Part shown: positions 9,060-32,441 of the stretch, piece after piece
How positions within the stretch are numbered: position 1 is the first letter of the stretch
Layout: each line of letters begins with the position of its first letter
Assembly: GCA_947504035.1 (NCBI GenBank)
Contig: CANNGA010000025.1
Coordinates: 1 to 33,373, forward strand
Direction: 5' to 3'
DNA from: an uncultured Flavobacteriaceae bacterium
GTDB taxonomy: Bacteria; Bacteroidota; Bacteroidia; Flavobacteriales; Flavobacteriaceae
DNA: 33,373 nucleotides
Made by a program: the position numbers and the translations under genes
Notes under the pieces: model-generated
What the model was told of the DNA's origin: nothing
What the model saw: only the letters and a program-made list of their open reading frames with translations
Databases searched by the model: none

Positions 9060-9710
9060 ATGAAAAATTTAAAATCAATTTTAGGAGTAGGAGCACTAGC
9101 CGTAGCTAGTTTTTTTACAATTGCAGCAGACCACATAGATGCTCCAGCCGTAAGTGGTGGTTCTAGTGATGTGACAGATTTTTACGCCTTTCAAGGTGAA
9201 AACACAGAAAATTTAGTCTTTGTAGCCAACGTTCAGGGTTTATTGAGCCCAGGAGAAACTGCGGGAGCTACGTTTAGCGAAAATGTACTGGTAGAAATTA
9301 ATATCGATACAGACGGGGATGCTGTAGAAGATTTAGTCATTCAAGCCATTCCAAGGGATGGCGATATGTACTTTTTTGGACCAGTAGCACCAGCACAGAC
9401 AGGTTTAGACAGTAGCATTCAAACGACAGCTACGCAACAAGGCGTCGTTGAGATATCTAGGTACAATGAGGCTCCAATTATAGGAACAAATGCAGGCATG
9501 AGCTTTTTTGCAGGACCAAGAGATGATCCTTTTTTTATGGACTTTGCGCAGTATACAGAAATCATAGCAGGAAATGCTACAGGGTTTAATACTCCAGGAA
9601 CAGACACGTTTGCAGGAACTAATGTTTTATCTATTGTAGTAGAGGTACCAAAACGTCTTATAGGCAATTCAGGAACGATCAATACATGGGTAGAAACTAA
9701 AACAAAATAA
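9060..9710 (+). CDS. DUF4331 family secreted protein
   Basis: A 216-residue exported protein. Signal peptide at about 1-22, then mature DHIDAPAVSGGSSDVTDFYA, the classic N-terminal DUF4331 motif. This is followed by NLVFVANVQGLLSPGET, an IDTDGDAVEDL acidic turn that could hold calcium, and GPRDDPFFMDFAQY near 150. The end has VLSIVVEVPKRLIG. In longer bacterial homologues the family continues beyond this point; here the remainder is a separate gene 35 bases downstream, so the two products may form one complex. The function of DUF4331 is not known to me. It is first in an operon with a DUF4331-like lipoprotein and a TPR lipoprotein. Confidence 0.88.
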   Translation: MKNLKSILGVGALAVASFFTIAADHIDAPAVSGGSSDVTDFYAFQGENTENLVFVANVQGLLSPGETAGATFSENVLVEINIDTDGDAVEDLVIQAIPRDGDMYFFGPVAPAQTGLDSSIQTTATQQGVVEISRYNEAPIIGTNAGMSFFAGPRDDPFFMDFAQYTEIIAGNATGFNTPGTDTFAGTNVLSIVVEVPKRLIGNSGTINTWVETKTK

Positions 9711-9745
9711 TACGTAAATAGATAAATTTAACGATACAATATATT

Positions 9746-10303
9746 ATGAAAACTTTAAAAATAGTAACACTTAGTGTAGTTCTTTCTTTTTTGACTTTTA
9801 GCTGCTCTAATGATGATAACGGGGACAGCACTATAGAAGAAGCACCAGATTTTTCTGGAACATATAGTCAAGCAGACCAAATGGGAAGACCTGCAGTGAA
9901 TACCGTATTTGTAACACCTTCTAGTAAAGATACGTTTAACAGAACCATTCCTTCAGAACAGAATGCAACATTTCAAAATATGTTCGAGACCAATTTAACA
10001 GCATTAAGTCCAGCTTTTACAACTGCAGAAGATACGAATGCATTAGGTTTAACAGCTTCAGAATTTACAGGCTTATTGGCTACAGATGTTTTAAATGTGT
10101 CTCTCGATGGTACGACTACTTTTTTTGATGGTACCAATGTACTTACAGGACGTGCATTAGCGGATGATGTGATAACTGTAGAACTTTTATTAATTTTTGG
10201 AGGTGAAGATTTTACGGAAAATCCAAGTCTTTCTAATGATAATGTAGATGCAAATGATAAACCTTTTTTAACCTCATTTCCTTACTTAGCTAGCCCTTGG
10301 TAG
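9746..10303 (+). CDS. DUF4331-type lipoprotein
   Basis: A 185-residue lipoprotein. The lipobox ends at Cys20 (SFLTFSCSNDD), giving the acidic mature start typical of outer-membrane lipoproteins in Bacteroidota. The body matches the second half of DUF4331 proteins: GTYSQADQMGRPAVNTVFV, TTTFFDGTNVLTGRALADDV, and a tail DNVDANDKPFLTSFPYLASP. It begins 35 bases after the first DUF4331 gene and is followed by a hairpin before the TPR gene. It probably works with the preceding protein at the cell surface or in the periplasm; the activity is unknown. Confidence 0.86.
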   Translation: MKTLKIVTLSVVLSFLTFSCSNDDNGDSTIEEAPDFSGTYSQADQMGRPAVNTVFVTPSSKDTFNRTIPSEQNATFQNMFETNLTALSPAFTTAEDTNALGLTASEFTGLLATDVLNVSLDGTTTFFDGTNVLTGRALADDVITVELLLIFGGEDFTENPSLSNDNVDANDKPFLTSFPYLASPW

Positions 10304-10379: not shown

Positions 10380-11690
10380 ATGGCAACAATTAAATGTATT
10401 TTAGGGACTTTACTTTTACTAGTTTTAGCATGTAATACAGCTACAGAAGTAAAGCAACAGATTACTAATGTAGATGATTACAATGCATTTTTATACACAA
10501 CAGATCGCACAGCAATACAGCAAACACTTCAAAATTATGAATTTTGGATGCATAAATTAGAGGCAACTCCAAATCAATATCCCTATCTGGTAAAAGCAGC
10601 GGCAGCGCAGTCCCAACTATTTAATCAAACGGGAGCCATTAAACATTTAGCTAAAGCAGAAGAATTGTTAGTAAAAGCAAATGCTGAAACACATTATAAA
10701 AATTCAGCATATTTAAGAACCTTAGCAAGAAATTATATAACACAGCATAAATTTAAAGCGGCTTTAGAGCTTTTAAAAATTGCCGAAACCAATGGCGATG
10801 CTTTATACGGAACTCAAAACATGCTGTTTGATGTGTATTTAGAATTAGGAGACCGTGAAAAGGCAAAGACGTATTTAAGTAAAATTGAAAATTATGATGC
10901 ATTTGATTTTTTAATCCGATTATCAAAATGGAGTGACCATGAGGGACAGTTAGATAAAGCCATTTTGTATTTGCAAAAAGCAACTGAAATTGCAGCGCGA
11001 CACCGTCAAGAGGGACTGTTGCAATGGTCGTATACAAATAGTGCAGATTATTATGGACATGCGGGGAACATTTCGGCAGCTTACCAACACTACTTAAAAG
11101 CCTTAGCTTTAGATCCAAACGATGCGTATGCCAAACGTGGTATCGCATGGATTGTGTATGCTCATGAGAAGAATGCTGAAGAAGCTTTACGTATTTTAAA
11201 TGCTATAACCGAGACGTATAAGACCCCAGATTACCATTTGCTTAAAGCTGAAATTGCTGAATTTAAAGGGGCAGAAGATCTTAGAGTTAAGGCTATAGCG
11301 GCATATAAAGACGCTACGAATAATGCCTTATATGGCGATATGTATAATGCCTACACTATAGATGTGTTAACTTCAAAACCTATACATATAGATTCTAATA
11401 CTGAAACGGCATTGCAGCTTGCAGTTAAAGAAGTTGCCAATAGACCAACAGCATTATCTTACGATTTATTAGCATGGACTCACCATGTAAAAGGCGATAC
11501 AGCCACAGCACTTCATATTATGGAAAATCATGTTGCAGGGCATACTTCAGAGCCTAAAGCGGTATACCATATGGCTGAAATTTATAAAGCCAACGGTGCA
11601 TTAGAGAAAGCTAAAGCATTAAAACAAGAACTGTTAGAGAGTACATTCGAATTAGGGCCGTTAATGGCTGAAAATATAAAACGGATTTAG
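10380..11690 (+). CDS. Tetratricopeptide repeat lipoprotein
   Basis: A 436-residue protein. The N-terminus LLLLVLACNTA gives a lipobox with Cys18, so it should be an exported lipoprotein. Several TPR units are visible, for example LRTLARNYITQHKFKAALEL (about 110), a unit near LQWSYTNSADYYGHAGNISA, and AYQHYLKALALDPNDAYAKR (about 235-255), plus AVYHMAEIYKANGALEKAKA near the end. TPRs act as protein-protein scaffolds. It is third in the DUF4331 operon. From memory, similar loci in other flavobacteria carry a HupE/UreJ-type membrane protein next, which is absent here. Confidence 0.85.
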   Translation: MATIKCILGTLLLLVLACNTATEVKQQITNVDDYNAFLYTTDRTAIQQTLQNYEFWMHKLEATPNQYPYLVKAAAAQSQLFNQTGAIKHLAKAEELLVKANAETHYKNSAYLRTLARNYITQHKFKAALELLKIAETNGDALYGTQNMLFDVYLELGDREKAKTYLSKIENYDAFDFLIRLSKWSDHEGQLDKAILYLQKATEIAARHRQEGLLQWSYTNSADYYGHAGNISAAYQHYLKALALDPNDAYAKRGIAWIVYAHEKNAEEALRILNAITETYKTPDYHLLKAEIAEFKGAEDLRVKAIAAYKDATNNALYGDMYNAYTIDVLTSKPIHIDSNTETALQLAVKEVANRPTALSYDLLAWTHHVKGDTATALHIMENHVAGHTSEPKAVYHMAEIYKANGALEKAKALKQELLESTFELGPLMAENIKRI

Positions 11691-11803
11691 TGTATTAAAG
11701 CTTAAAGGTGTACTCTATTAATTTGAGGGAATTACTAGAGTTAATAGTACCTTTTATTTGATTCAAATGTTTTAACCTAAAAACTTCAGTTTTAGTTATG
11801 GAG

Positions 11804-11839
11804 GCCTTAATTGCAATACAAGCAATTAAGGCTTTTTTT
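11804..11839 (+). terminator. Intrinsic terminator after the DUF4331-TPR operon
   Basis: A perfect 11-bp stem (GCCTTAATTGC / GCAATTAAGGC) with a 7-base loop is followed by seven T. It lies 113 bases after the TPR stop, between convergent genes. The T run is on the plus side only, so it serves the operon to its left. Confidence 0.9.
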
Positions 11840-11856
11840 AGTTCGTAAGCACATTC

Positions 11857-13260
11857 TTAGCGTTTGGAAAGCAATAAAGATTTTGCATACCCAGATCCAG
11901 TAATGGCTACAATGTATACGCCAGCTTTTAATTTAGAAAGTTCCAATTGTATGTTACGTTGCTGTCTCGATTTTTGTTGTAGGAGACGTTTGCCTTGAAG
12001 GTCTATAAGTTGTATGTCTAAAGCTTGTAAAGGAAGGTTGTTAAGTGTTAAATTACCGCTTTTTAAAGGGTTTGGGAATGCGTATACAGTTGCTGTGTTA
12101 AGAGTGACATCTGTGGCGTTCAAAATAGGAGCTTCATCTTCACAAGGCATTATGTTCCAATCGGGGCAAGATAATACCATCGCTCTTAAGGAAAAATCAC
12201 TTATAGGGTCGTTACCATTAGGAGTACGCGTATTGTCCCAGAAATGAATTTCGGAAGGTTTTCCGCCTTTGGCACGCATAGAAGGAATGGCATTTGCTCT
12301 AAGACCAAGATGAAACGTATTGCTAAATACTGCATTTCGATAGCCTGTATTGTAATTGGTTTTCCGGTCTTGAAAATCGATAACGGCATTAATTACTGTA
12401 GAACCATCTAAATTAAAGGTGTTGTTATAAACATAGGTGTAAGCACCTTTAAGATCTATAAATGCATCTGCACTATTTTCACCGGTTATGCCTTCTGCCG
12501 AAAAGGTACAATTTCTAATAATGGTGTTTAAAGTACCTTCTTTAACATCGACACCTTCTGCAGTGACATGTGGCCCCACTATACAGTTCTCAATGGTATT
12601 GTTGTTACAGTCTGGATTATACGTTGTATGGTGTTGAGATTTATCAGATCCTACATATAAGCCTTCTCCAAAACCAGGTTTTTTAATTCCAGTATATGAT
12701 ATATTACAGTTTGTAATAAGATTATCACTAGAGCCATCCCTAAGGTGGATACCTTCCTCTCCAATATCGCGTACGGTAATATTTTCAATAATACCATGAT
12801 TTGCAGTATCGAAAACCAAACCTTTAGATCCGTCTTCTAAGATAAGGTCCTTAAGGTGCCAGTAGTCTCCTAAAATACGCATAACATACCCATCGTAACT
12901 GCCTTCAGGCGCTTTAAGAATTGGTGGATTAGAAGGGGTTTTTGCACGAATTGTAATGCGATTTTCAGCGTCGCCATCAGCTGCCGAGAAAAATCGAGAG
13001 GCCCTGCCATCTGTATTGTCTTTTTCAATAGGAATATAGGTGCCAGGCGCTATTACAATTTCATCGCCAGGTTGAGCAGTTCTCATGGCTTCTAAAATAC
13101 AAGCAACAGTATTACATTCAATAAAATCGTTTATTATAATAGGTTTTGATACTGTATTATAGGCTTTTTTCTTGAATGGAGTCTCTGGTGTTGCATTAGC
13201 GTAACATAATGCTATAAGAAACAACGAAAGGCAATAAAAAGAATGTGTTTTAAAAAGCAT
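11857..13260 (-). CDS. Secreted right-handed parallel beta-helix protein with T9SS sorting domain
   Basis: A 467-residue protein: signal peptide at about 1-23; parallel beta-helix domain at about 46-373; T9SS type A C-terminal domain at about 393-467 (AFPNPLKSGNLTL ... AGVYIVAI ... KSLLLSKR). The helix begins with C-x-A-x-R-x-A-x-P-G-D-E-I-V-I-A-P-G-T-Y, the opening typical of chondroitinase-B/alginate-lyase-like helices. Conserved polar turns include [34 protein letters not shown] and ADAFIDLKG, whose acids plus lysines could form a calcium/lyase-like site. The domain is about three-quarters identical by eye to the one inside the GH5 protein encoded just upstream. Polysaccharide binding or cleavage outside the cell is likely but unproven. 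Confidence 0.82.
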   Translation of the reverse strand: MLFKTHSFYCLSLFLIALCYANATPETPFKKKAYNTVSKPIIINDFIECNTVACILEAMRTAQPGDEIVIAPGTYIPIEKDNTDGRASRFFSAADGDAENRITIRAKTPSNPPILKAPEGSYDGYVMRILGDYWHLKDLILEDGSKGLVFDTANHGIIENITVRDIGEEGIHLRDGSSDNLITNCNISYTGIKKPGFGEGLYVGSDKSQHHTTYNPDCNNNTIENCIVGPHVTAEGVDVKEGTLNTIIRNCTFSAEGITGENSADAFIDLKGAYTYVYNNTFNLDGSTVINAVIDFQDRKTNYNTGYRNAVFSNTFHLGLRANAIPSMRAKGGKPSEIHFWDNTRTPNGNDPISDFSLRAMVLSCPDWNIMPCEDEAPILNATDVTLNTATVYAFPNPLKSGNLTLNNLPLQALDIQLIDLQGKRLLQQKSRQQRNIQLELSKLKAGVYIVAITGSGYAKSLLLSKR

Positions 13261-13724
13261 AGGGAGGGAGGTTTAATTTGTTTGTAGCGTTAGCGTTTGT
13301 TGTTTTACAGAGGCTCAGTCATGGTATTAAAACGAAAACAATATAGTTGAGTCATGTTTTATGATATACGGTATGAAAGTCATATTGGTTGTCTAATTGT
13401 AATAAAACGTTCAATTTTAACTCGTTTTATAGATTGGCGGTACCCTAGCGAAGCTGTAGTATAGAATACCTACTTGTATTTTCTTTATTTTAATGCCGTA
13501 GCGTTAGATAGAAATTGAAAGATGCAGTCTGCAATAGCATTTAAAGACACTCATAGTGTGCTAATATCTAAAACGGTTTTAGGAGGCGTACAGGGAAATT
13601 AATGGCATTAAATTTTGTAAAATGTAGAATTTGAAAGAGGGATGTGAAAATGGAAGACATAAAGAAGCCTCATAATGTATGGGTAACATTATGAGGCTTT
13701 CTTCTTCTTTTAAAAAACTATTAA
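13261..13724. other. Intergenic stretch between the two beta-helix genes
   Basis: About 460 bases. It holds the terminator of the GH5-beta-helix gene at its right end and presumably the promoter of the smaller beta-helix gene at its left. I see no coding frame. The mRNA leader just before the smaller gene is pyrimidine-rich, with no Shine-Dalgarno motif. Confidence 0.5.
13665..13699 (-). terminator. Hairpin terminator of the GH5-beta-helix gene
   Basis: A perfect 14-bp stem (AAGCCTCATAATGT / ACATTATGAGGCTT) with a 7-base loop lies 26 bases past the stop codon. On the minus strand it runs into CTTTATG, a weak T tract; on the plus side it runs into a longer TC/T stretch, so it may stop transcription in both directions. 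Confidence 0.75.
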
Positions 13725-16691
13725 TTAGTATTTAGAGAGTAAAATAGATTTTTGTAAGCCTTGTCCTTTAATACTTACCACATACAAACCTGTTTTTAAT
13801 ACAGAGACATCGAGTTGCGCTTTAGTATTGTTTTTAAAGGTATTTTGGATTATAATTTTACCTTGTAAATCCATAATTTGAATGCTAGCACCAGTTTCAG
13901 GAAGATGTGAAAGTGTTAGCAATTGATCTGTAATAGGGTTAGGGTATAGCTTAAGCGCAGAGGCAGCATCTACAGTTGCCGCTTTTTCTGCAATTTGTTT
14001 GGCGCTACAGTTTGGTGCCGTAGCCGTATTGCTAAAGTAAATTGTAAACCCACCTGTTTTAGAAACCATTACGAAATTGGTGCCATCTGCAGTAACCCAA
14101 TACGCCCCATCTAAGCCTGTTATTCCAGAGTTGTTTATGGCTACGTCTGGACTTGAGTTATTAAAATTATAGGTTAAACCCTCTTTTAAATCGACGTAAT
14201 AGCTAGGATTACCATTTGTAGTATTTATAGCGAATCTACGTAGTATGTTTTGATTTAAATTCCAGTTAATTCTAAAACGTCTCAAGTTAGAAAGATTAGG
14301 ACCTCCTGTTCCTAAAACATGAACATTAGAAAAAGAAGCATCATCAAAAGTAGGAAGTGCAGCATTTGCAGGCGTATTAAAGGTGCAATTAGACATCAAA
14401 ACCTCTTCTGTAACCTCAAAGGATGTATTTGCTTCAGCAGTTGCATTTTCATTATCGGTAGCTTTAACGCTTATGTTATAGGTGCCTATAATTGCATTTG
14501 AAATTGTATACTGGTATGGCGCATTACTATCTTCACCTAATTTTGTAGCGCCATTATAGAATTCTACTTTAGTGATATTCCCATCTGTATCTGTCGCATT
14601 TACAGCAATAGTGATCGTGCTATTTTCTAAAAATCTACTGTTATTGGCGGGAGATGTAATGGTGACTGATGGTGGTCTATTATCAAGATCGGTGTCGCAT
14701 GGTAAAATATTCCAACTTGGACATGATAAAACCATCGCTTTTAATGAAAAATCAGAAGTCGGATCTGGTGTATTAGGATGTCTTGTGTTATTCCAAAAGT
14801 GCATTTCAGAAGGACTACCGCCTTTAGCACGCATGGATGGTATCTCATCACCTCTGTTTTCTAGGTTAAAGGTATTGTTAAAAATAGCATTTCTAGTCCC
14901 TGTTTTATAGCCTGTTTTTCTATCTTGAAAATCTATTACAGAGTTAATTACTGTAGAGCCTTCTAAATTAAAGGTGTTATTATAAACAAAGGTATAAACA
15001 CCTTTGAGATCTAAAAATGCGTCGGCACTATTTTCTCCTGTAATACCTTTAGCAGAAAATGTACAATTTCTAATAATGGTATGTGTCGTACCTTCTTTAA
15101 CATCTACACCTTCTGCAGCAACATTAGGACCTATGATACAGTCTTCTAATATATTATTATCGCAATCGGGATCATACGGGTCGTTGTGTTGAGATTTGTC
15201 AGACCCCACATAAAGTCCTTCTCCAAATCCTGCTTTTACAACCCCTGTGTTAGAGACATTACAACCTCTAACAATATTATTACTAGAGCCATCTCTTAAA
15301 TGAATCCCTTCTTCTCCAATATCGCGTACTGTAATGTTTTCAATAAGACCGTGATTGGCATTATCAAACACTAACCCTTTAGAACCATCTTCCATGATAA
15401 GGTCTTTAATTTGCCAATAATCTCCAAGAATACGCATAACATAACCATCATAACTTCCTTCAGGCGCTTTTAAAATGGGAGGTCTCGACGGATTTTGTGC
15501 GCGTATGATGATCGGTTGCGATGCTGTACCATCCTTATCAGAGAAAAATCGAGATGCTCTGCCATTGGTGTTGTCTTTTTCTAAAGCGACATAAGTGCCT
15601 GGGGCAATAATAATTTCATCACCAGGTAAGGCGCGACGCATAGCATCAAGGATACATTCTGCAGTGTTACAGTTTATGGTACCATGGTTACCATCAATTA
15701 TTGGTGTTGCAGCATTCCAGTTTTCTATAATGTCTTTTATATAAATACCAGTATCTGTTAATTGATTGTTTTGTAGGCCTGCGACGCCTTGACGATCGGC
15801 GACAATTGAAGACCCTTCACCTTTATCACTTACAGACCAATTTACATGACTAATAGCGTTTTCTTTTAGGAAAGCCATCCATCTTTCGGTTTCGGGGGCA
15901 TCTACGTCGCCTCTACCATCAGCATTTATGGCACCCCACTCTGATACGAAAAGCGGTACACCATTATTTAAGGCCTGCTGTGCTTTATCTCTTAAAAACT
16001 GCCCATGTGTCCCAGAGTAAAAATGCAAGGTATAGGCTAAATTTGTATCTGCTATAGGGTCCTGTGAAGCTATATCTACGTTTTGAGACCATCTAGGAGA
16101 GCCAACAAGGATTAAATTATCAGGATCTTTGGCGCGTATGGCAGCAATAACTGCCGCAGCGTAGGTTTTAATTTCTTGCCAAGATTGATCTATAGGTTCA
16201 TTGTAAATCTCATAGATGATATGATCATTTGTGCCATAAATTTCAGCCATGTTTTCAAAAAAAGCGATAGCTTCATCTTGGTACTTTTCGGCTTCGTGAG
16301 TGTGCCAATCGATAATAACATACATACCTGCAGCAATAGCTGCGTCTATAATAGTTCTTGTTTTTGCAGTTTGGTTTTGTGGGCTATCAATGTAACCACG
16401 TCCGTTATCCCAGCTTTCTTTTACACCTACGGCAACTCTTATAATAGAACTTTTCCAAGCATTTGAAAGCTGATTTACCGTTTCTGCATTGTAAAAGTCT
16501 GAGGTATCGTCGGCATTACTCCAAAATAAGCTATTACCTGCTAAGCTAATGGGGGTGTTGGTTTTGTCTACGATTTTATTGCCGTTGGCTTGTAATCGTC
16601 CATGTTTTTCCACTATAGATTGCGCATATACTGTATGGAATAAACACGCAAAAATGAGGAATACGTAAAAATTAGTTTTGTTGGAAGTCAT
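13725..16691 (-). CDS. Secreted GH5 glycosidase fused to parallel beta-helix, with Ig-like and T9SS domains
   Basis: A 988-residue multidomain protein. Signal peptide at about 1-23. GH5 (cellulase-like) TIM barrel at about 25-325, with R85, the WHTH segment at 129-132, acid/base Glu165 in IYEIYNEP, H223/Y225 in TLHFYSGTH, nucleophile Glu251 in [10 protein letters not shown], and W285. It looks catalytically intact. Beta-helix domain at about 328-665, close to the neighbouring 467-residue protein. Ig-like domain at about 673-760 ([20 protein letters not shown]). A Cys-bracketed beta module at 769-895 of unknown type. T9SS type A sorting domain at about 907-988. It should be an extracellular enzyme cutting a beta-glucan or mannan, with the helix acting on or binding the same or a linked polymer. 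The fusion is unusual to me. Confidence 0.88.
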
Positions 16692-16728
16692 AATTTAATG
16701 ATATTTTAGTTTAATGGTTTAATAATTA

Positions 16729-16736
16729 CAAATTTA
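16729..16736 (-). promoter_or_regulatory. Candidate flavobacterial -7 box for the GH5-beta-helix gene
   Basis: On the minus strand the sequence reads TAAATTTG, an exact match to the TAnnTTTG box of primary sigma promoters in Bacteroidota, 37 bases before the ATG. No convincing TTG -33 partner was seen at the usual spacing. Confidence 0.4.
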
Positions 16737-17272
16737 GCAAAAACATGAGCTTTTTCTTGCACTTAGCATTACGTAAAGTGCTTAAATACAGGTATTTAGT
16801 TATAAAAGGACTATTTTACTCTTATTTGGTATTATTGGTATACTATCGCGGGATGGATGTATCGGCAAAAGGTGTAATATTTCTAAAATAAAACAGTGAA
16901 ATTGAGAGAAAGCTTATCTTTTGAGATAGATTTTAGTAGAGTTAATGCATTGAAAAGCAATTTAATAACATTTAATATTAAGGAGTTATAAGTATAAAAC
17001 ATTTACAATTACAAAACTTTCTTCTTTTAAATAGTGTCTATTGGCGTATTAAATGTTATGCGTATAGTGTTTAGGATATCCATAATATGTTGAACAGTAA
17101 ATTTGGAAGTGTATAGAAAACGAGAGCTGTAAATATGATTCGTGTTAATGCGCTCTGGGTTTAAAAACTTGAATAGCGTCTAAAGTGAGTTTTTATAAAA
17201 TCGGTTTCTCCTAGGTTAGAATTGGTAAAACCGTTTAGATAGATATTATGTTTTGGTTTTTTGAAGTTTGTA

Positions 17273-17300
17273 GCGCCTATTGTTTTGTACTTATAGGCGC
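17273..17300. repeat. Inverted repeat, 8-bp arms, 12-base spacer
   Basis: GCGCCTAT and ATAGGCGC are perfect arms in otherwise AT-rich intergenic DNA. No T tract follows on either side, so it is not an obvious terminator. An operator or RNA hairpin is possible. Confidence 0.45.
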
Positions 17301-17349
17301 AAATACAGTGCGTTTAATTTTAAAATAAGGTGCAATGGTATTACTTTAT

Positions 17350-17445
17350 CTAAAAAAAGCCACCATTTTCAGGAATACCCCTTGGGACATCGCCATAATT
17401 TTGGTTAATACTTCCATCTAATTTGTAATCCAGTTTGTGTAGGTT
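17350..17445 (-). pseudogene. Possible coding remnant (31 codons)
   Basis: A minus-strand open frame between two stops, without a start codon. Its translation, NLHKLDYKLDGSINQNYGD followed by VPRGIPENGGFF, looks like the C-terminal end of a real protein rather than translated AT-rich spacer. It lies just past the stop of the 126-residue secreted protein. The parent family was not recognised. Confidence 0.25.
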
Positions 17446-17465
17446 TTAAAATAAGTAGAATACCA

Positions 17466-17846
17466 TCAATTGAGTTTGATAAGTTTTAATTCAAGATCTA
17501 TTCGTCTGCTTTGCGCTTTTATAAGGGCTTTATTTTTTTTGACTTTAAGCATTTGTACATACACTTTTTGGCCTATGTATGGTGCGGCAGTGTCTTCTGT
17601 AACGTTTAGAATTTTTTCATACCTTAAAACATAACTACAGTCTGAAGTCCATTCTATAGAAGCATGAATTTCCAATCCAGTTTCTGGGTGTGTCTCAATT
17701 TGTGAGGTGAGTGTTCTAACTATTTTTTCAGGTCTTTGTTTATCTGCGTAAACAAATTCGCCAGTTTTAAATTGAGAACAATTTTTAATTTGAGAAAAAC
17801 AGCTAAGCGATAAGCTAAATATTAATATCGAAACCAATTCTTTCAT
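17466..17846 (-). CDS. Small secreted protein of unknown function, 126 aa
   Basis: A signal peptide (about 1-18, SILIFSLSLSCFS) is followed by KNCSQFKTGEFVY, a TLTSQIETHPETGLEIHASI strand pair, WTSDCSYVLRYEKIL and a basic C-terminus with KVYVQMLKVKKNKALI. The two mature cysteines could form a disulfide. The pattern fits a small flavobacterial family of periplasmic beta-rich proteins that I remember being misleadingly labelled as topoisomerase IV in some databases; nothing here supports that label. It is solitary, with long non-coding flanks. Confidence 0.72.
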   Translation of the reverse strand: MKELVSILIFSLSLSCFSQIKNCSQFKTGEFVYADKQRPEKIVRTLTSQIETHPETGLEIHASIEWTSDCSYVLRYEKILNVTEDTAAPYIGQKVYVQMLKVKKNKALIKAQSRRIDLELKLIKLN

Positions 17847-18444
17847 ATGATTGTCAACGTATTATATATGCAGTTTGTATTAAAACTAGACATAATGTTA
17901 TAAAATATAAAACCATTACATAATTTAAGTCATTGATTTACAAGGGTTATTGGTGTTTTGAGGCTGTGTTTAGTGGCGTAAATTGAGATAAATATAAGTA
18001 AAATAGTTTTTTATGTTAAAAAGAGGTTGCGTTAAATACTCTGATTATAAGTGATCTATCTTAAAATTAGGTTTGCGTATAGACGTTTTAGAATAAAAGT
18101 TAAGCAGATGTCTTTTGTTATAAGATGCATGTATGTCGTTATGTCTATTGTTATTATTTAAAAAGTACAGAAGGTTTTTAAAGCAATGAATGCAGCGTTC
18201 AAATTTGTTGTTCTAATTCTATTTATAGGGAATAATTAGGTCCTCTTTGTGGTACAAGGGGCAAACACAATCTACAGATTACGCCTCTAAATATTGTGTT
18301 GTATTGAACGTTAGAAATATAAGAGGTGTTCTATTTTGCGATACTTATAATGTTTAATAAGATTAGTACGGCCAAAATAGATAAAGCAGTTATACTGGTA
18401 TTAGATTTTTTATAGAGTTGTACTTTATGGGACTACACCAGTAA
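17847..18444. other. Long AT-rich intergenic stretch
   Basis: About 600 bases between the small secreted protein and the anti-sigma gene. I see a weak 8-bp inverted repeat (AACACAAT at 18264-18271 and ATTGTGTT at 18293-18300) and short coding-like minus-strand frames that do not join. No tRNA or terminator was recognised. Confidence 0.45.
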
Positions 18445-19254
18445 CTAAGAGGTGCTATTCACTGTACCTAATACATATAATTGATCCATTGTAGGTGTTT
18501 TACTGCCACCTAAAGGTTCTAAAGTAATACCAAAGGCTTCGCTCTTATTTGGGTTACTTATTTCGAATATTTTATTGGTATCATCACTAAAGTTTGTAAT
18601 GGTACCAAGGCTTGTTGGCGCTAGAGGTGCTAAAGTTAGAGACCATACTTGATAGACTTTACCTTTAGGAGGTTCTGGCAAACCTTCAGCATCTAAAAAA
18701 ATGCGTTGCTGGTCTTTGTCCCAATATACTTTTGCATAAGTAGCTGTAAAATGACCTTGTCCCCCTAAGTCAATTTTTGTAATGGCATCATCTCTTAATA
18801 TTGAAATTAAGCTATTCGCTTCGTTTAAATTAAGTTTGGCGTTTTCAATTTGAATTTCAAGTAATGATTGTTGGGTATTAGAAATTTCAATACGAGACTG
18901 TAAGTTTTTGTTTTGCAATACCATCCAAGTTAATCCAACTCCTAATACTAGTGCTGCAGCCCAACCCGAATAGGTGGCCCAATTGTAGTTTTGTTTTTGT
19001 AAGGTAATCGTTGGAGTAATTGTATGTTCTGCGTTATTTATTTTTGTTTTTATGGATTTTAAAAGGTGTTGTGTTTTACCGTGAGAGGTTGCAGCTGTTA
19101 AAGCAACCACAGCGCCCTCAATCTCTAAAACCTCTTGTAATAGTTCAGGGTATTTTTGTAGAAGAGCATATACTTCTGCATTTTCTTTTTCAGAAAGCGC
19201 TCCAGCAACATAAAGTTCTAGGATTCCAGATGATATGTAATGATTCTTGTCCAT
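18445..19254 (-). CDS. Anti-sigma factor, RskA-like C-terminal domain
   Basis: A 269-residue membrane protein. The cytoplasmic N-terminus (about 1-90, SGILELYVAGALSEKENAEV) is the helical sigma-binding region; it lacks the His-x3-Cys-x2-Cys zinc motif of ZAS anti-sigmas. One membrane helix lies at about 94-113 (YSGWAAALVLGVGLTWMVLQ), then a coiled-coil-like stretch to about 152. The periplasmic C-terminal domain (about 160-269) has AKVYWDKDQQRIFLDAEGLP, GKVYQVWSL and FGITLEPLGGSKTPT, hallmarks of the RskA C-terminal family. It starts three bases after the stop of the ECF sigma gene, so they are translated together. It should hold the sigma factor inactive until an envelope signal. Confidence 0.9.
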   Translation of the reverse strand: MDKNHYISSGILELYVAGALSEKENAEVYALLQKYPELLQEVLEIEGAVVALTAATSHGKTQHLLKSIKTKINNAEHTITPTITLQKQNYNWATYSGWAAALVLGVGLTWMVLQNKNLQSRIEISNTQQSLLEIQIENAKLNLNEANSLISILRDDAITKIDLGGQGHFTATYAKVYWDKDQQRIFLDAEGLPEPPKGKVYQVWSLTLAPLAPTSLGTITNFSDDTNKIFEISNPNKSEAFGITLEPLGGSKTPTMDQLYVLGTVNSTS

Positions 19255-27112: not shown

Positions 27113-29890
27113 ATGAGTATTTATAAAGATTATCTTAAGGAGATCGAAGAACGTAAAGGCCAAGGCTTACACCCTAAGCCTATTGATAGTGCAGAATTAT
27201 TAAGTGAAATTATCACGATAATAAAAGATGTAGATAACACCTACAGACCAGAAGCACTTAACTTTTTTATCTATAACACATTACCGGGCACAACGAGTGC
27301 AGCAGGTGTAAAGGCTAAATTCTTAAAGGAAATTATCTTAGGAACATCGGTTTTAGAAGAAATTACACCCGCTTTTGCTTTAGAGCAATTAGCACACATG
27401 AAAGGGGGACCATCTGTAGAGGTGTTATTAGATCTAGCTTTAGGTGATGCTGCTGATAGAGCTGAAGAAGCTGCTAAAGTATTGAAAACTCAAGTGTTTT
27501 TATACGAAGCAGATACAGAACGTTTAGAAAATGCTTATAAAGCAGGTAATGCAATCGCAAAATCGATTATTGAGAGTTATGCACAAGCTGAATTCTTTAC
27601 AAAGTTACCTGAAATTGAAGAAGAAATAGAGGTTGTAACATTTATTGCAGGTATTGGTGATATTTCAACAGATTTATTATCTCCAGGAGGTGATGCGCAT
27701 TCAAGATCAGACCGTGAACTTCATGGACAATGTATTTTTGAGCATAACCATGACATGCAAAATGAATTGTTGGCTTTAAAAGAAAAGCATCCCGATAAGC
27801 GTGTGATGCTAATAGCTGAAAAAGGTACTATGGGCGTTGGATCGTCAAGAATGTCTGGTGTAAATAACGTTGCATTATGGACAGGTGTGGCTTCTAGTCC
27901 TTATGTACCATTTATTAATATAGCGCCTGTAATAGCAGGAACAAATGGAATCTCTCCAATTTTCTTGACTACAGTTGGTGTAACAGGAGGTATAGGAATA
28001 GATCTTAAGAACTGGGTAAAACAGAAAGATGCAGATGGAAATACGGTTTTTGATGAAGATGGAGAACCTGTATTAGAACAAACGTACTCTGTAGAAACGG
28101 GTACAGTTCTTACCATAAATACAAAAACCAAAAAATTATATAACGGCGCTAAAGAATTAAAAGATATTTCTACAGCATTAACGCCACAAAAAATGGAATT
28201 TATCAAAGCAGGAGGCTCTTACGCTGTTGTATTTGGTAAAAAATTACAAACGTTTGCTGCTAAGGTACTAGGTATTGAAGTGCCTCAAGTATATGCCACT
28301 TCTAAAGAAATTTCTATAGAAGGACAAGGTTTAACAGCAGTAGAAAAGATATTTAATAAAAATGCAGTAGGAACAACGCCAGGAAAGACATTACATGCTG
28401 GGTCAGACGTTCGTGTAGAGGTTAATATTGTAGGTTCTCAGGATACTACAGGATTAATGACGTCTCAGGAACTAGAAATGATGGCTGCAACAGTAATATC
28501 TCCTATAGTTGATGGCGCTTACCAATCGGGATGTCACACCGCTTCTGTATGGGATGACAAATCGAAAGCCAATATTCCTAGATTAATGCAATTTATGAAT
28601 GATTTTGGTTTGATTACAGGTCGTGATCCTAAGGGTAAATATTTCCCAATGACCGATGTAATTCATAAAGTATTAAACGATATTACAGTAGGCGATTGGG
28701 ACATCATTATAGGTGGTGATTCACATACGCGTATGTCTAAAGGGGTTGCTTTTGGAGCAGATTCAGGAACGGTAGCACTCGCTTTAGCAACAGGAGAGGC
28801 TACAATGCCAATTCCACAGTCTGTAAAAGTGACGTTTAAAGGCGAGATGAAACCTTATATGGATTTCCGTGATGTGGTACATGCTACACAGCAACAAATG
28901 TTAAAGCAATTTGCTGGTGAGAATGTATTCCAAGGTCGAATTATAGAAGTACACATTGGTACATTAACGGCAGATCAAGCCTTTACATTTACAGATTGGA
29001 CCGCAGAGATGAAAGCTAAAGCTTCTATCTGTATCTCTGAAGACGACACTTTAATAGAATCTTTAGAAATTGCTAAAGGTCGTATCCAAATCATGATTGA
29101 AAAGGGTATGGATAACGAGACGCAAGTTCTTAAAGGTTTAGTAGATAAAGCGCAAACTAGAATTACAGAACTTAAAACAGGAATTAAGCCTGCGTTAAGA
29201 CCAGATGCAAATGCAAAATATCACGCGGAAGTTTTAATTGATTTGGATGAGATCATAGAACCTATGATTGCCGATCCAGATGTTAACAATGATGATGTTT
29301 CTAAACGTTATACACACGATGTTATTAGACCATTATCATTCTATGGCGGTACAAAAACTGTAGACTTAGGGTTTGTAGGCTCTTGTATGGTGCATAAAGG
29401 CGATATGAAAATATTAGCGCAAATGTTGAAAAACATAGAAGCACAGCACGGTAAGGTAGAATTTAAAGCGCCATTAGTGGTAGCGCCTCCAACGTACAAT
29501 ATTGTAGACGAGTTGAAAGCTGAAGGTGATTGGGAAGTTTTACAAAAATATTCTGGATTCGAATTTGATGACAGTGCACCTAAAGGATTAGCACGTACCA
29601 AATATGAAAACTTATTATACTTAGAGCGTCCAGGATGTAACTTATGTATGGGGAACCAAGAAAAAGCAGAACCAGGAGATACGGTAATGGCAACCTCTAC
29701 ACGTTTATTCCAAGGCCGTGTGGTTAAGGACTCTGGTGAGAAAAAAGGAGAATCTTTATTATCATCAACACCAGTAGTGGTATTATCTACAATTTTAGGA
29801 AGAACACCAACAATTGAAGAATACCAAGCCGCTGTAGAAGGTATCGTTTTAACTAAGTTTAAACCTTCACAAAAGCAATTAGTAAACTAA
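27113..29890 (+). CDS. acnB: Aconitate hydratase B (bifunctional, 2-methylisocitrate dehydratase type)
   Basis: A 925-residue cytoplasmic [4Fe-4S] enzyme that interconverts citrate and isocitrate in the TCA cycle; AcnB enzymes can also dehydrate 2-methylisocitrate. The AcnB-type HEAT-like N-terminal domain is at about 1-160 (EEITPAFALEQLAHMKGGPS). The swivel domain carries LLSPGGDAHSRSDRELHGQC, and the core has GCHTASVWDD and IIGGDSHTRMSKGVAFGADS. The cluster ligands are Cys758 (GFVGSCMVHKG) and Cys842/Cys845 (ERPGCNLCMGNQEKA). It is about 60 residues longer than the E. coli protein, with about 25 of these between Cys758 and the last cysteine pair. It has its own terminator. Confidence 0.97.
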   Translation: MSIYKDYLKEIEERKGQGLHPKPIDSAELLSEIITIIKDVDNTYRPEALNFFIYNTLPGTTSAAGVKAKFLKEIILGTSVLEEITPAFALEQLAHMKGGPSVEVLLDLALGDAADRAEEAAKVLKTQVFLYEADTERLENAYKAGNAIAKSIIESYAQAEFFTKLPEIEEEIEVVTFIAGIGDISTDLLSPGGDAHSRSDRELHGQCIFEHNHDMQNELLALKEKHPDKRVMLIAEKGTMGVGSSRMSGVNNVALWTGVASSPYVPFINIAPVIAGTNGISPIFLTTVGVTGGIGIDLKNWVKQKDADGNTVFDEDGEPVLEQTYSVETGTVLTINTKTKKLYNGAKELKDISTALTPQKMEFIKAGGSYAVVFGKKLQTFAAKVLGIEVPQVYATSKEISIEGQGLTAVEKIFNKNAVGTTPGKTLHAGSDVRVEVNIVGSQDTTGLMTSQELEMMAATVISPIVDGAYQSGCHTASVWDDKSKANIPRLMQFMNDFGLITGRDPKGKYFPMTDVIHKVLNDITVGDWDIIIGGDSHTRMSKGVAFGADSGTVALALATGEATMPIPQSVKVTFKGEMKPYMDFRDVVHATQQQMLKQFAGENVFQGRIIEVHIGTLTADQAFTFTDWTAEMKAKASICISEDDTLIESLEIAKGRIQIMIEKGMDNETQVLKGLVDKAQTRITELKTGIKPALRPDANAKYHAEVLIDLDEIIEPMIADPDVNNDDVSKRYTHDVIRPLSFYGGTKTVDLGFVGSCMVHKGDMKILAQMLKNIEAQHGKVEFKAPLVVAPPTYNIVDELKAEGDWEVLQKYSGFEFDDSAPKGLARTKYENLLYLERPGCNLCMGNQEKAEPGDTVMATSTRLFQGRVVKDSGEKKGESLLSSTPVVVLSTILGRTPTIEEYQAAVEGIVLTKFKPSQKQLVN

Positions 29891-29916
29891 ACGTTACTTA
29901 ATTTATAAATACACTA

Positions 29917-29945
29917 AAGTCCGAGTTCTTACTCGGACTTTTTTT
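29917..29945 (+). terminator. Intrinsic terminator of acnB
   Basis: A perfect 10-bp stem (AAGTCCGAGT / ACTCGGACTT) with a TCTT loop runs into a T tract, 26 bases after the acnB stop. Confidence 0.92.
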
Positions 29946-30173
29946 ATGGCCTATTCTTAAGAAACTATTTTTTATGGGTATGCTATAAAAACACATCCTT
30001 ATTTTAAGGTCTAAATAGCGAGAGTCCTTAAAGTAGCATAGCCCTATAAATGTATACATTGCATTTATAGATTTTATTAGAAAAACTAATTTAGTTCGGT
30101 TTTTCAATGGCTTTCTTATTTTGTATATTAGACCCTAGTAAACGTTAAACAAAAATTAAATACAGTTACTTAT

Positions 30174-32441
30174 ATGGCATTTGATATAGAAATGATAAAA
30201 GGAGTGTACTCCAAGATGGCAGAACGTGTCGATAAAGCACGAGAGATTGTTGGAAAACCATTAACGCTTTCTGAAAAGATATTATACAATCACTTATGGG
30301 ACGGGAATCCTACCAAAGCATTTGTTAGAGGTAAGGATTATGTCGATTTTGCGCCCGATAGAATTGCGTGTCAAGATGCCACAGCGCAAATGGCATTATT
30401 GCAATTTATGCAAGCAGGAAAACCAAAAGTAGCAGTACCAACCACAGTACATTGCGATCATTTGATACAAGCTAAAGAAGGTGCAGCAAAAGATTTGAAA
30501 AATGCAAATGATGTAAGTAGTGAGGTTTTTAATTTTTTAGAATCGGTGTCTAATAAATATGGCATTGGATTTTGGAAACCAGGCGCTGGTATTATACACC
30601 AAGTGGTGTTAGAGAATTATGCCTTCCCAGGTGGTATGATGATAGGAACAGATTCGCATACAGTAAATGCAGGGGGCTTAGGTATGGTCGCGATTGGTGT
30701 AGGTGGAGCCGACGCCGTAGATGTTATGGCAGGTATGGCTTGGGAGTTGAAATTCCCTAAACTTATAGGCGTAAAGTTAACAGGAAAATTATCAGGATGG
30801 ACAGCGCCTAAAGACGTGATATTAAAAGTTGCAGAGATTTTAACCGCTAAAGGCGGGACTGGCGCTATTGTAGAATATTTTGGCCCAGGGGCTACAGCGA
30901 TGTCATGTACAGGAAAAGGAACCATATGTAATATGGGGGCAGAAATAGGTGCAACCACATCTACCTTTGGATACGATACTTCTATGGAACGCTATTTACG
31001 TGCTACAGAACGTGCCGATGTGGCCGATGCAGCCAATGCTGTAAAAAGCTATTTGACTGCCGATCCAGAAGTGTATGAAGCTCCAGAACAGTACTTCGAT
31101 GAACTTATAGAAATTAACTTATCTGAGTTAGGGCCGCTTTTAAATGGACCATTCACACCAGATTTATCTACAGAAGTGGGCACAGCCATGACAACAAAGG
31201 CTAAGGCTAACGATTGGCCTATAAAAGTAGAGTGGGGGCTTATAGGGTCTTGTACAAATTCGTCGTATGAAGATTTGTCAAGAGCATCTTCTATAGCACA
31301 GCAAGCTCTAGATAAAGGCATTACCATGAAATCGGAATTAGGGATTAACCCAGGTTCTGAACAAGTGCGCTACACAGCAGAACGTGATGGTATTTTAGGC
31401 ATTTTTGAAAATCTTAATGCTAAAATATTTACCAATGCTTGTGGCCCTTGTATAGGGCAATGGGCAAGATATAGCGATCCTAAAAATGCACCAAAAAATA
31501 GTATTGTACATTCTTTTAATAGAAACTTTGCCAAGCGTGCCGATGGTAACCCTAATACACATGCTTTTGTAGCATCGCCAGAATTAACAGCAGCAATTGC
31601 CATTGCAGGCCGTTTAGATTTTAATCCGTTAAAAGATAAATTAATTAACGAAAACGGAGAAGAGGTGATGTTAGACGAACCTACAGGATGGGAATTGCCA
31701 CCAAAAGGGTTCGATGTGAAAGATAATGGCTACTTAGAACCAGAAGCCGATGGAAGCCATGTTAATGTTGCTGTAAAAGACGATTCAGAACGCTTACAAC
31801 TACTAACACCTTTTACGCCTTTAGGCGCTTCTATAACAGGAGCTAAACTTCTAATAAAAGCTTTTGGAAAGTGTACTACAGACCATATTTCTATGGCTGG
31901 ACCATGGTTGCGTTTTAGAGGCCATTTAGATAATATTGCCAATAATACTTTAATAGGTGCTGTAAATGCCTTTAATAAAAAGACCAATTTTGTTAAGAAT
32001 CAATTGACAGGCGATTATGGCGGTGTACCAGATGTACAACGTGCTTATAAAGCAGAAGGTATTAAAACCATAGTTGTGGGCGACCATAATTATGGTGAGG
32101 GCTCTTCGAGAGAGCATGCAGCCATGCAGCCAAGACATTTAGGCGTTGCAGCCGTAATTGTGAAATCTTTTGCTCGTATACACGAAACCAACCTTAAAAA
32201 ACAAGGGATGTTAGGATTAACATTTGCTAATGAAGCAGACTATGATCTGATCCAAGAAAATGACACCTTTAATTTTATAGATTTAGAAGATTTTGCGCCA
32301 GACACACCATTAACCTTAGAAGTGGTACATGCCGATGGTACTAAAGATACCATACGTTTAAACCACACCTATAACGATGCACAAATTGCATGGTATAATG
32401 AAGGCTCTGCTCTTAATTTAATTAAAAAGCAGAATGGATAG
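30174..32441 (+). CDS. acnA: Aconitate hydratase, mitochondrial-type
   Basis: A 755-residue aconitase of the mitochondrial (ACO2-like) type rather than the longer bacterial AcnA/IRP type. The N-terminal part has GRPDRIA-like [30 protein letters not shown] and [20 protein letters not shown] then DSHT. The [4Fe-4S] ligands are Cys360 ([13 protein letters not shown]) and Cys423/Cys426 ([10 protein letters not shown]), close to the spacing in the pig heart enzyme. The swivel domain has [20 protein letters not shown]. It catalyses the same citrate-isocitrate step as the AcnB encoded just upstream. The terminator between them and a 283-base gap imply separate expression. The symbol is used by analogy. 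Confidence 0.95.

Follow-up and report, generated by a model that had tools for sequence, protein, structure and literature searches.

The window, that is, the whole 33,373-nucleotide stretch of an uncultured Flavobacteriaceae genome analyzed here, encodes on its reverse strand a protein in which a GH5 glycosidase is followed by a beta-helix. Is the helix an enzyme, is the combination new, and which polymers would such a chain attack? The first-pass annotation of this DNA read the product as a T9SS-exported GH5 barrel joined to a complete right-handed beta-helix, an Ig-like module and an unknown C-terminal module. It proposed an enzymatic role for the helix, regarded the combination as new, and suggested a mixed polymer as target, for example a beta-glucan or mannan bearing uronic acids. 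Our analysis indicates that the gene very probably encodes a bifunctional wall-degrading enzyme of the already described CelAly type. The features concerned are the following.

13725..16691, reverse strand: GH5-PL31-Big_7-UKD-CTD protein, very probably CelAly-type, 988 aa (ORF, domain and PDB searches)
16620..16691, reverse strand: putative N-terminal signal peptide, roughly residues 1-24 (judged by eye)
15708..16619, reverse strand: GH5 cellulase domain, residues 25-328; codons of Glu165 at 16197-16199 and Glu251 at 15939-15941
14688..15692, reverse strand: predicted PL31 beta-helix lyase domain, residues 334-668; codons of Tyr494 at 15210-15212 and Lys532 at 15096-15098
14466..14672, reverse strand: Big_7 Ig-like domain, residues 674-742; corresponds to B1 of CelAly, which binds alginate gel
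14007..14387, reverse strand: UKD/CBM113 domain, residues 769-895; Tyr50 and Lys100 of the CelAly UKD are replaced by Arg818 and Ala868
13728..13949, reverse strand: T9SS type A C-terminal sorting domain, residues 915-988
11857..13260, reverse strand: second, stand-alone PL31 lyase with its own T9SS tail, 467 aa; Tyr202, Lys240

Architecture and published counterpart

The frame reads through 988 codons without internal stops. Pfam recognized Cellulase/GH5 (residues 41-290, E 1.3e-61), Beta_helix (residues 425-550, E 8.8e-6, 25.9 bits, exactly the curated cut-off), Big_7 (residues 674-742, E 2.8e-19) and Por_Secre_tail (residues 915-978, E 9.6e-12); the T9SS domain was also found by NCBIfam. 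The GH5 domain, the Ig-like module and T9SS export were thus correctly recognized at first pass. The N-terminus, judged by eye, looks like a signal peptide. No PL31- or UKD-specific model in Pfam and NCBIfam matched, and since the hits were to generic models only, the fusion looks new in a domain scan.

The combination is not new, because CelAly of Aquimarina sp. 2-A2 (ISME J 2026), which was shown to cut both cellulose and alginate, is built in the same way, GH5_2-PL31-B1-B2-UKD-CTD, with PL31 being a characterized CAZy family, according to the accessible part of its description (PMC13235733). The helix of the window protein matches this family within the same GH5 arrangement; by the first-pass annotation's own criterion, this refutes its claim of novelty. 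In both proteins the GH5 and PL31 catalytic domains follow in this order in a single chain, and the four catalytic residues, the UKD/CBM113 module and the T9SS tail are shared. The window protein has one Ig domain, whereas CelAly has two; proteins of this type mostly have one or two Big domains, and a single one was reported in 16 of 58 CelAly homologues, 55 of which belong to Flavobacteriaceae (PMC13235733, accessible part). A further difference from CelAly is the stand-alone PL31 gene adjoining the fusion gene. By description, the window protein can also be likened to two related multimodular enzymes mentioned in the same source, ClGP of Cellulophaga lytica (cellulase, alginate lyase and glucuronan lyase) and CelA of Cellulophaga sp. 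RHA 52 (cellulase and alginate lyase).

CelAly numbering was transferred through a 1,099-aa Aquimarina protein (L009) collinear with CelAly, in which positions 173, 259, 501 and 538 are E, E, Y and K and the UKD starts at residue 884, just as published for CelAly. In this alignment, E173/E259/Y501/K538 correspond to E165/E251/Y494/K532 of the window protein. An independent GH5-helix combination unrelated to CelAly is practically precluded by the 62% identity to L009 over the aligned length, together with the common domain order and UKD.

The C-terminal module is indeed present, but "unknown" no longer describes it: residues 769-894 matched 9KVN, the UKD of CelAly, with E values of 1.3e-46 and 7.5e-48 in two PDB searches, and the match spans the whole 126-residue chain. 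The UKD of CelAly was proposed as the founder of CBM113, and it binds cellulose through Tyr50, Tyr63 and Tyr64, said to be conserved across homologues, and alginate through Lys100, while B1 binds alginate gel through K40, R49 and R75 (PMC13235733, accessible part). The Ig domain of the window protein matched B1 (9KVU, E 1e-21), and K40, R49 and R75 correspond to Lys708, Lys717 and Lys743 in the one of two registers tried that places K, R and R on basic residues, a register that fits the 9KVU sequence if its numbering runs one ahead of the chain count.

The window UKD keeps R36, Y63, Y64 and K110 but has Arg818 for Tyr50 and Ala868 for Lys100. Not all of the three cellulose-binding tyrosines, which are functional rather than family-defining residues, are therefore kept. 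Because of these two replacements, the module may bind less well than the CelAly UKD or in another manner; the change of Tyr50 lowers the cellulose-binding claim, while the membership in UKD/CBM113 is unaffected. The UKD of a sister genome of the same genus (G008; the window's genome is designated G000) has R820 and E870 at positions 50 and 100. Among 12 aligned UKDs, position 50 is Tyr in eight, Arg in two (this genus) and His in two (one GH9 protein), and position 100 varies widely. The Tyr50-to-Arg change offers a natural comparison for the share of this residue in binding. The window's genome also encodes a 1,505-aa GH9-CBM3-PKD protein with a T9SS tail (L098:2204-6721, G000:C26), whose two UKD copies both have His at the Tyr50 position.

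Catalytic domains

The glutamates at residues 165 and 251, correctly placed by the first-pass annotation, lie within EIYNEP and FVSEWG, at the positions of the two catalytic glutamates of CelAly. Matches of the GH5 domain in PDB were to cellulases and endoglucanases, e.g., 8C10, 4M1R, 1EGZ and 1TVN (E 4.7e-98 to 5.9e-83), which have the cellulase barrel in common with the window protein but, in the chains compared, carry no lyase domain. Assignment to GH5 subfamily 2 would follow from that of CelAly.

Searched against PDB by sequence, residues 328-669 matched two chains only, the alginate lyase PsAly of Paenibacillus sp. FPU-7 (6KFN, E 3.5e-59) and, as a weak match, a pectate lyase (1RU4, E 2.3e-6). 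PsAly is a PL31 enzyme with a beta-helix fold, as stated in the accessible parts of PMC8286568 and PMC8618178. The AlphaFold2 model of the helix, built with an eight-sequence alignment as input, had a mean pLDDT of 90 and a pTM of 0.90 and bears out a right-handed parallel beta-helix. In Foldseek, 6KFN ranked first (TM 0.82/0.93, E 5.4e-23), followed by a PL6 lyase (E 7.7e-9). Assignment of the helix to PL6 or PL9 was rejected, since structures of both ranked far below 6KFN by fold, and by sequence the weak match to 1RU4 was the only other one. The structural alignment with PsAly showed 36% identity, and the Tyr and Lys motifs are the same by sequence; the compared PsAly chain, unlike the window protein, has no cellulase domain. 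The PL31 domain scored 467 bits against its Aquimarina counterpart, while 200 shuffles of the same residues gave at most 27.7 bits. Since 6KFN came first both by sequence and by predicted fold, the helix is assigned to a described enzyme family, PL31, rather than being left as an unassigned helix, and the earlier proposal that it acts as an enzyme gains a probable basis from the retained Tyr494 and Lys532.

A catalytically dead helix that merely binds polymers is very improbable. Two of the reported binding residues are missing from the UKD of this chain, which makes decay elsewhere conceivable, but the catalytic Tyr and Lys of the helix are kept in all eight aligned PL31 domains, and of the motifs around them GEGLYVGSD is kept in seven and VDVKEGT in six, with conservative changes in the remainder; this alignment excluded a more distant PL31 frame (L116) in which a pattern search found neither catalytic motif. 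Moreover, the replacements E173A and Y501A of CelAly each abolished the respective activity, the lyase activity being wholly lost upon change of the tyrosine corresponding to Tyr494 (PMC13235733, accessible part). The window copy of the enzyme would probably behave like CelAly.

Candidate algal target

The fusion chain would leave the cell through the T9SS and be anchored to the wall of the alga by its Ig-like and UKD modules. Its PL31 helix could cleave a beta-1,4-linked polyuronate via beta-elimination using Tyr494 and Lys532; the polyuronate cut by the tested relative CelAly is M-containing alginate. The GH5 barrel (Glu165/Glu251) would then hydrolyze cellulose or mixed-linkage glucan laid bare by the lyase. 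The first-pass suggestion of a role against wall material bearing uronic acids is upheld. Two different polymers that adjoin each other, cellulose together with alginate or glucuronan, fit the evidence better than a single beta-glucan or mannan bearing uronic acids. In seaweed walls, the secreted enzyme should degrade both cellulose and a polymer of uronic acids.

Which seaweed is meant is less certain, and the genome context hints at green rather than brown algae. In that case, the PL31 domain would serve in this genus mainly for cutting glucuronan, and the same machine would attack the cellulose and glucuronan of green algae (Ulva) instead of brown-algal cellulose and alginate; we consider this possible but doubtful. 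PF08787 (PL7) had no matches in G000 and G008, against five in G355, three in G012 and two in the Aquimarina genome G406. The best PF07940 scores were 89.5 bits in G355, 98.3 in G012 and 96.3 in G406 (cut-off 24), and matches were weak in G000 (37.5 and 25.3 bits) and G008 (37.7 and 20.1 bits). Both PF07940 (Hepar_II_III) matches of G000, the genome in which PL40 homology was assessed, are homologues (E 3.2e-177 and 1.6e-84) of Uly1040, a PL40 ulvan lyase according to the accessible part of PMC12915356. PL6 had no matches in G000. These searches covered PL6 in G000 and PL7 and PF07940 in both genomes. The PF07940 search, with positive genomes alongside, revealed no strong PL15/17-type matches in G000 and G008. 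Since G000 is without PL7, PL6 and strong PL15/17-type matches, the bacterium may not feed on alginate. Its contig C11, with ulvan-type loci, carries four sulfatases in the stretches scanned, as well as GH88, GH2, GH3, GH43 and SusD, and the kinase, isomerase-like and aldolase-dehydrogenase genes found there could enable rhamnose use. Ulva walls contain cellulose, ulvan and minor glucuronan, as described in the accessible parts of PMC11395424 and PMC4498240, and glucuronan lyase activity was reported for the homologue ClGP (PMC13235733, accessible part).

Several observations speak against green algae. CelAly cut PM, PMG and sodium alginate but not PG, and among the lyase substrates tested it was active on alginate only, although glucuronan was perhaps outside that set (PMC13235733, accessible part). 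The bacterial glucuronan lyase CUL-I belongs to PL38 rather than PL31, as stated in the accessible part of PMC9227215. G355 and G406, which have the full enzyme, do possess PL7, as fits alginate, and the Aquimarina genome G407 matches neither PL7 nor PF07940. GH88 separates the groups uncleanly, because it is present in G012 and G406 and missing from G355, as well as from G407. The fusion gene does not adjoin the ulvan-type loci. With the genome in draft form (73 contigs; 99.2% complete), the lack of a family proves little. We found no published statement of the green-algal idea for the PL31/CelAly class, which does not prove its absence in print. The chance that cellulose plus glucuronan is the natural substrate is about one in three. 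Slightly less likely still is the broader view that the fusion has been turned in this genus to Ulva-type cellulose and glucuronan, with other uronate enzymes serving ulvan, and that the "brown-algal" class is really one for cellulose plus beta-1,4-polyuronate, the alga being set by the other loci of the host.

The gene thus adds a well-supported member to an enzyme class already in the literature, with a modest peculiarity tied to its host. It is unsurprising in a marine-type Bacteroidota genome because the architecture has already been published. Its value is that the enzyme is full-length and keeps its catalytic residues, and that its genome shows ulvan-type loci and none of the searched alginate families PL6, PL7 and PL15/17-type. 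This offers a natural way to examine how far the brown-algal account can be generalized. If PL31 here prefers glucuronan, the published class would span green and brown algae.

Gene neighborhood and distribution

The stand-alone PL31 is 75%–77% identical to the fused PL31 domain, depending on the alignment used. Its derivation from a former GH5 fusion, by comparison with a 761-aa GH5-PL31-CTD protein of G008, was considered and rejected: tblastn over 11700-13800 gave chance-level matches only (best E 0.23), and no GH5 remnant was found. A tree did not resolve the descent of the genus's four PL31 copies. The highest pairwise identities, 83% between the window 988-aa and G008 989-aa proteins and 80% between the window 467-aa and G008 761-aa proteins, give no more than a hint that the copies pair in this way.

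In G008, three GH5/PL31-type proteins (761-aa GH5-PL31-CTD, 346-aa GH5 and 989-aa full CelAly type) are encoded beside genes for NYN, LETM1-like and TPR proteins and two DUF4331 pieces, which are neighbors in the window as well. The 761-aa protein (L096:8859-11144), found beside the full CelAly type and the stand-alone GH5, lacks Ig and UKD domains. A coverage of 75% was required in the published survey of CelAly homologues, all of which are reported to have the UKD (PMC13235733, accessible part), so this shorter protein may have escaped it.

The TPR gene is present in 10 of the 12 genomes of the genus, with no match in G006 and G009. It adjoins an anti-sigma/sigma pair in all eight genus genomes that have it and lack PL31, with one ORF (199 or 225 aa) in between at two loci (L149 and L156). 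Seen from the TPR gene, the pair lies in the window beyond the two lyase genes, and the stretch 11690-18445, comprising both of them, is missing from the corresponding site in all eight fetched genus genomes. In G008, the pair was not found within about 46 kb around the locus. Because the lyase genes occupy a site that is empty in these eight genomes, they were either gained in two genomes or lost in the others. At 35.0%, the inserted stretch shows no contrast in base composition with its flanks (35.2% and 33.9%). A protein search for signs of mobility in 72,556 plasmid records gave matches in 22, none covering 80% of the query at one place. The best, on the unannotated Persicobacter record CP012863.1 (289179-292532), comprised residues 327-987, from PL31 onwards, in two pieces with 49.9% identity over 64% of the query.

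Within the genus, PL31 was found in 2 of the 12 genomes searched (G000 and G008). In the family sample, 25 of 397 genomes had a PL31 match at E 0.001 or better; matches were strong (E < 1e-60) in five (G000, G012, G355, G281 and G153), and the best E value in the remaining 20 was 1.5e-10 or worse. The full CelAly architecture occurs in the window and in G355 (L114), whereas L113 encodes PL31-Big-UKD-CTD and L115 PL31-CTD; in L116, PL31 alone was recognized and the frame runs off the locus. A contig-wide scan by short exact patterns, followed by a domain scan of ORFs of at least 150 aa, showed PL31 or UKD in at least five (L009, L010, L011, L024 and L032) of the best 80 of 583 loci, a selection that is no measure of prevalence; among these 80, only L009 had the full architecture.

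Two other observations concern neighboring genes of the window. At 9060-10303, two adjacent ORFs match separate parts of DUF4331, and their homologues lie side by side in G008. A tandem of two distinct aconitase-type genes lies at 27113-32441; one has an aconitase B N-terminal domain and the other a C-terminal aconitase domain.
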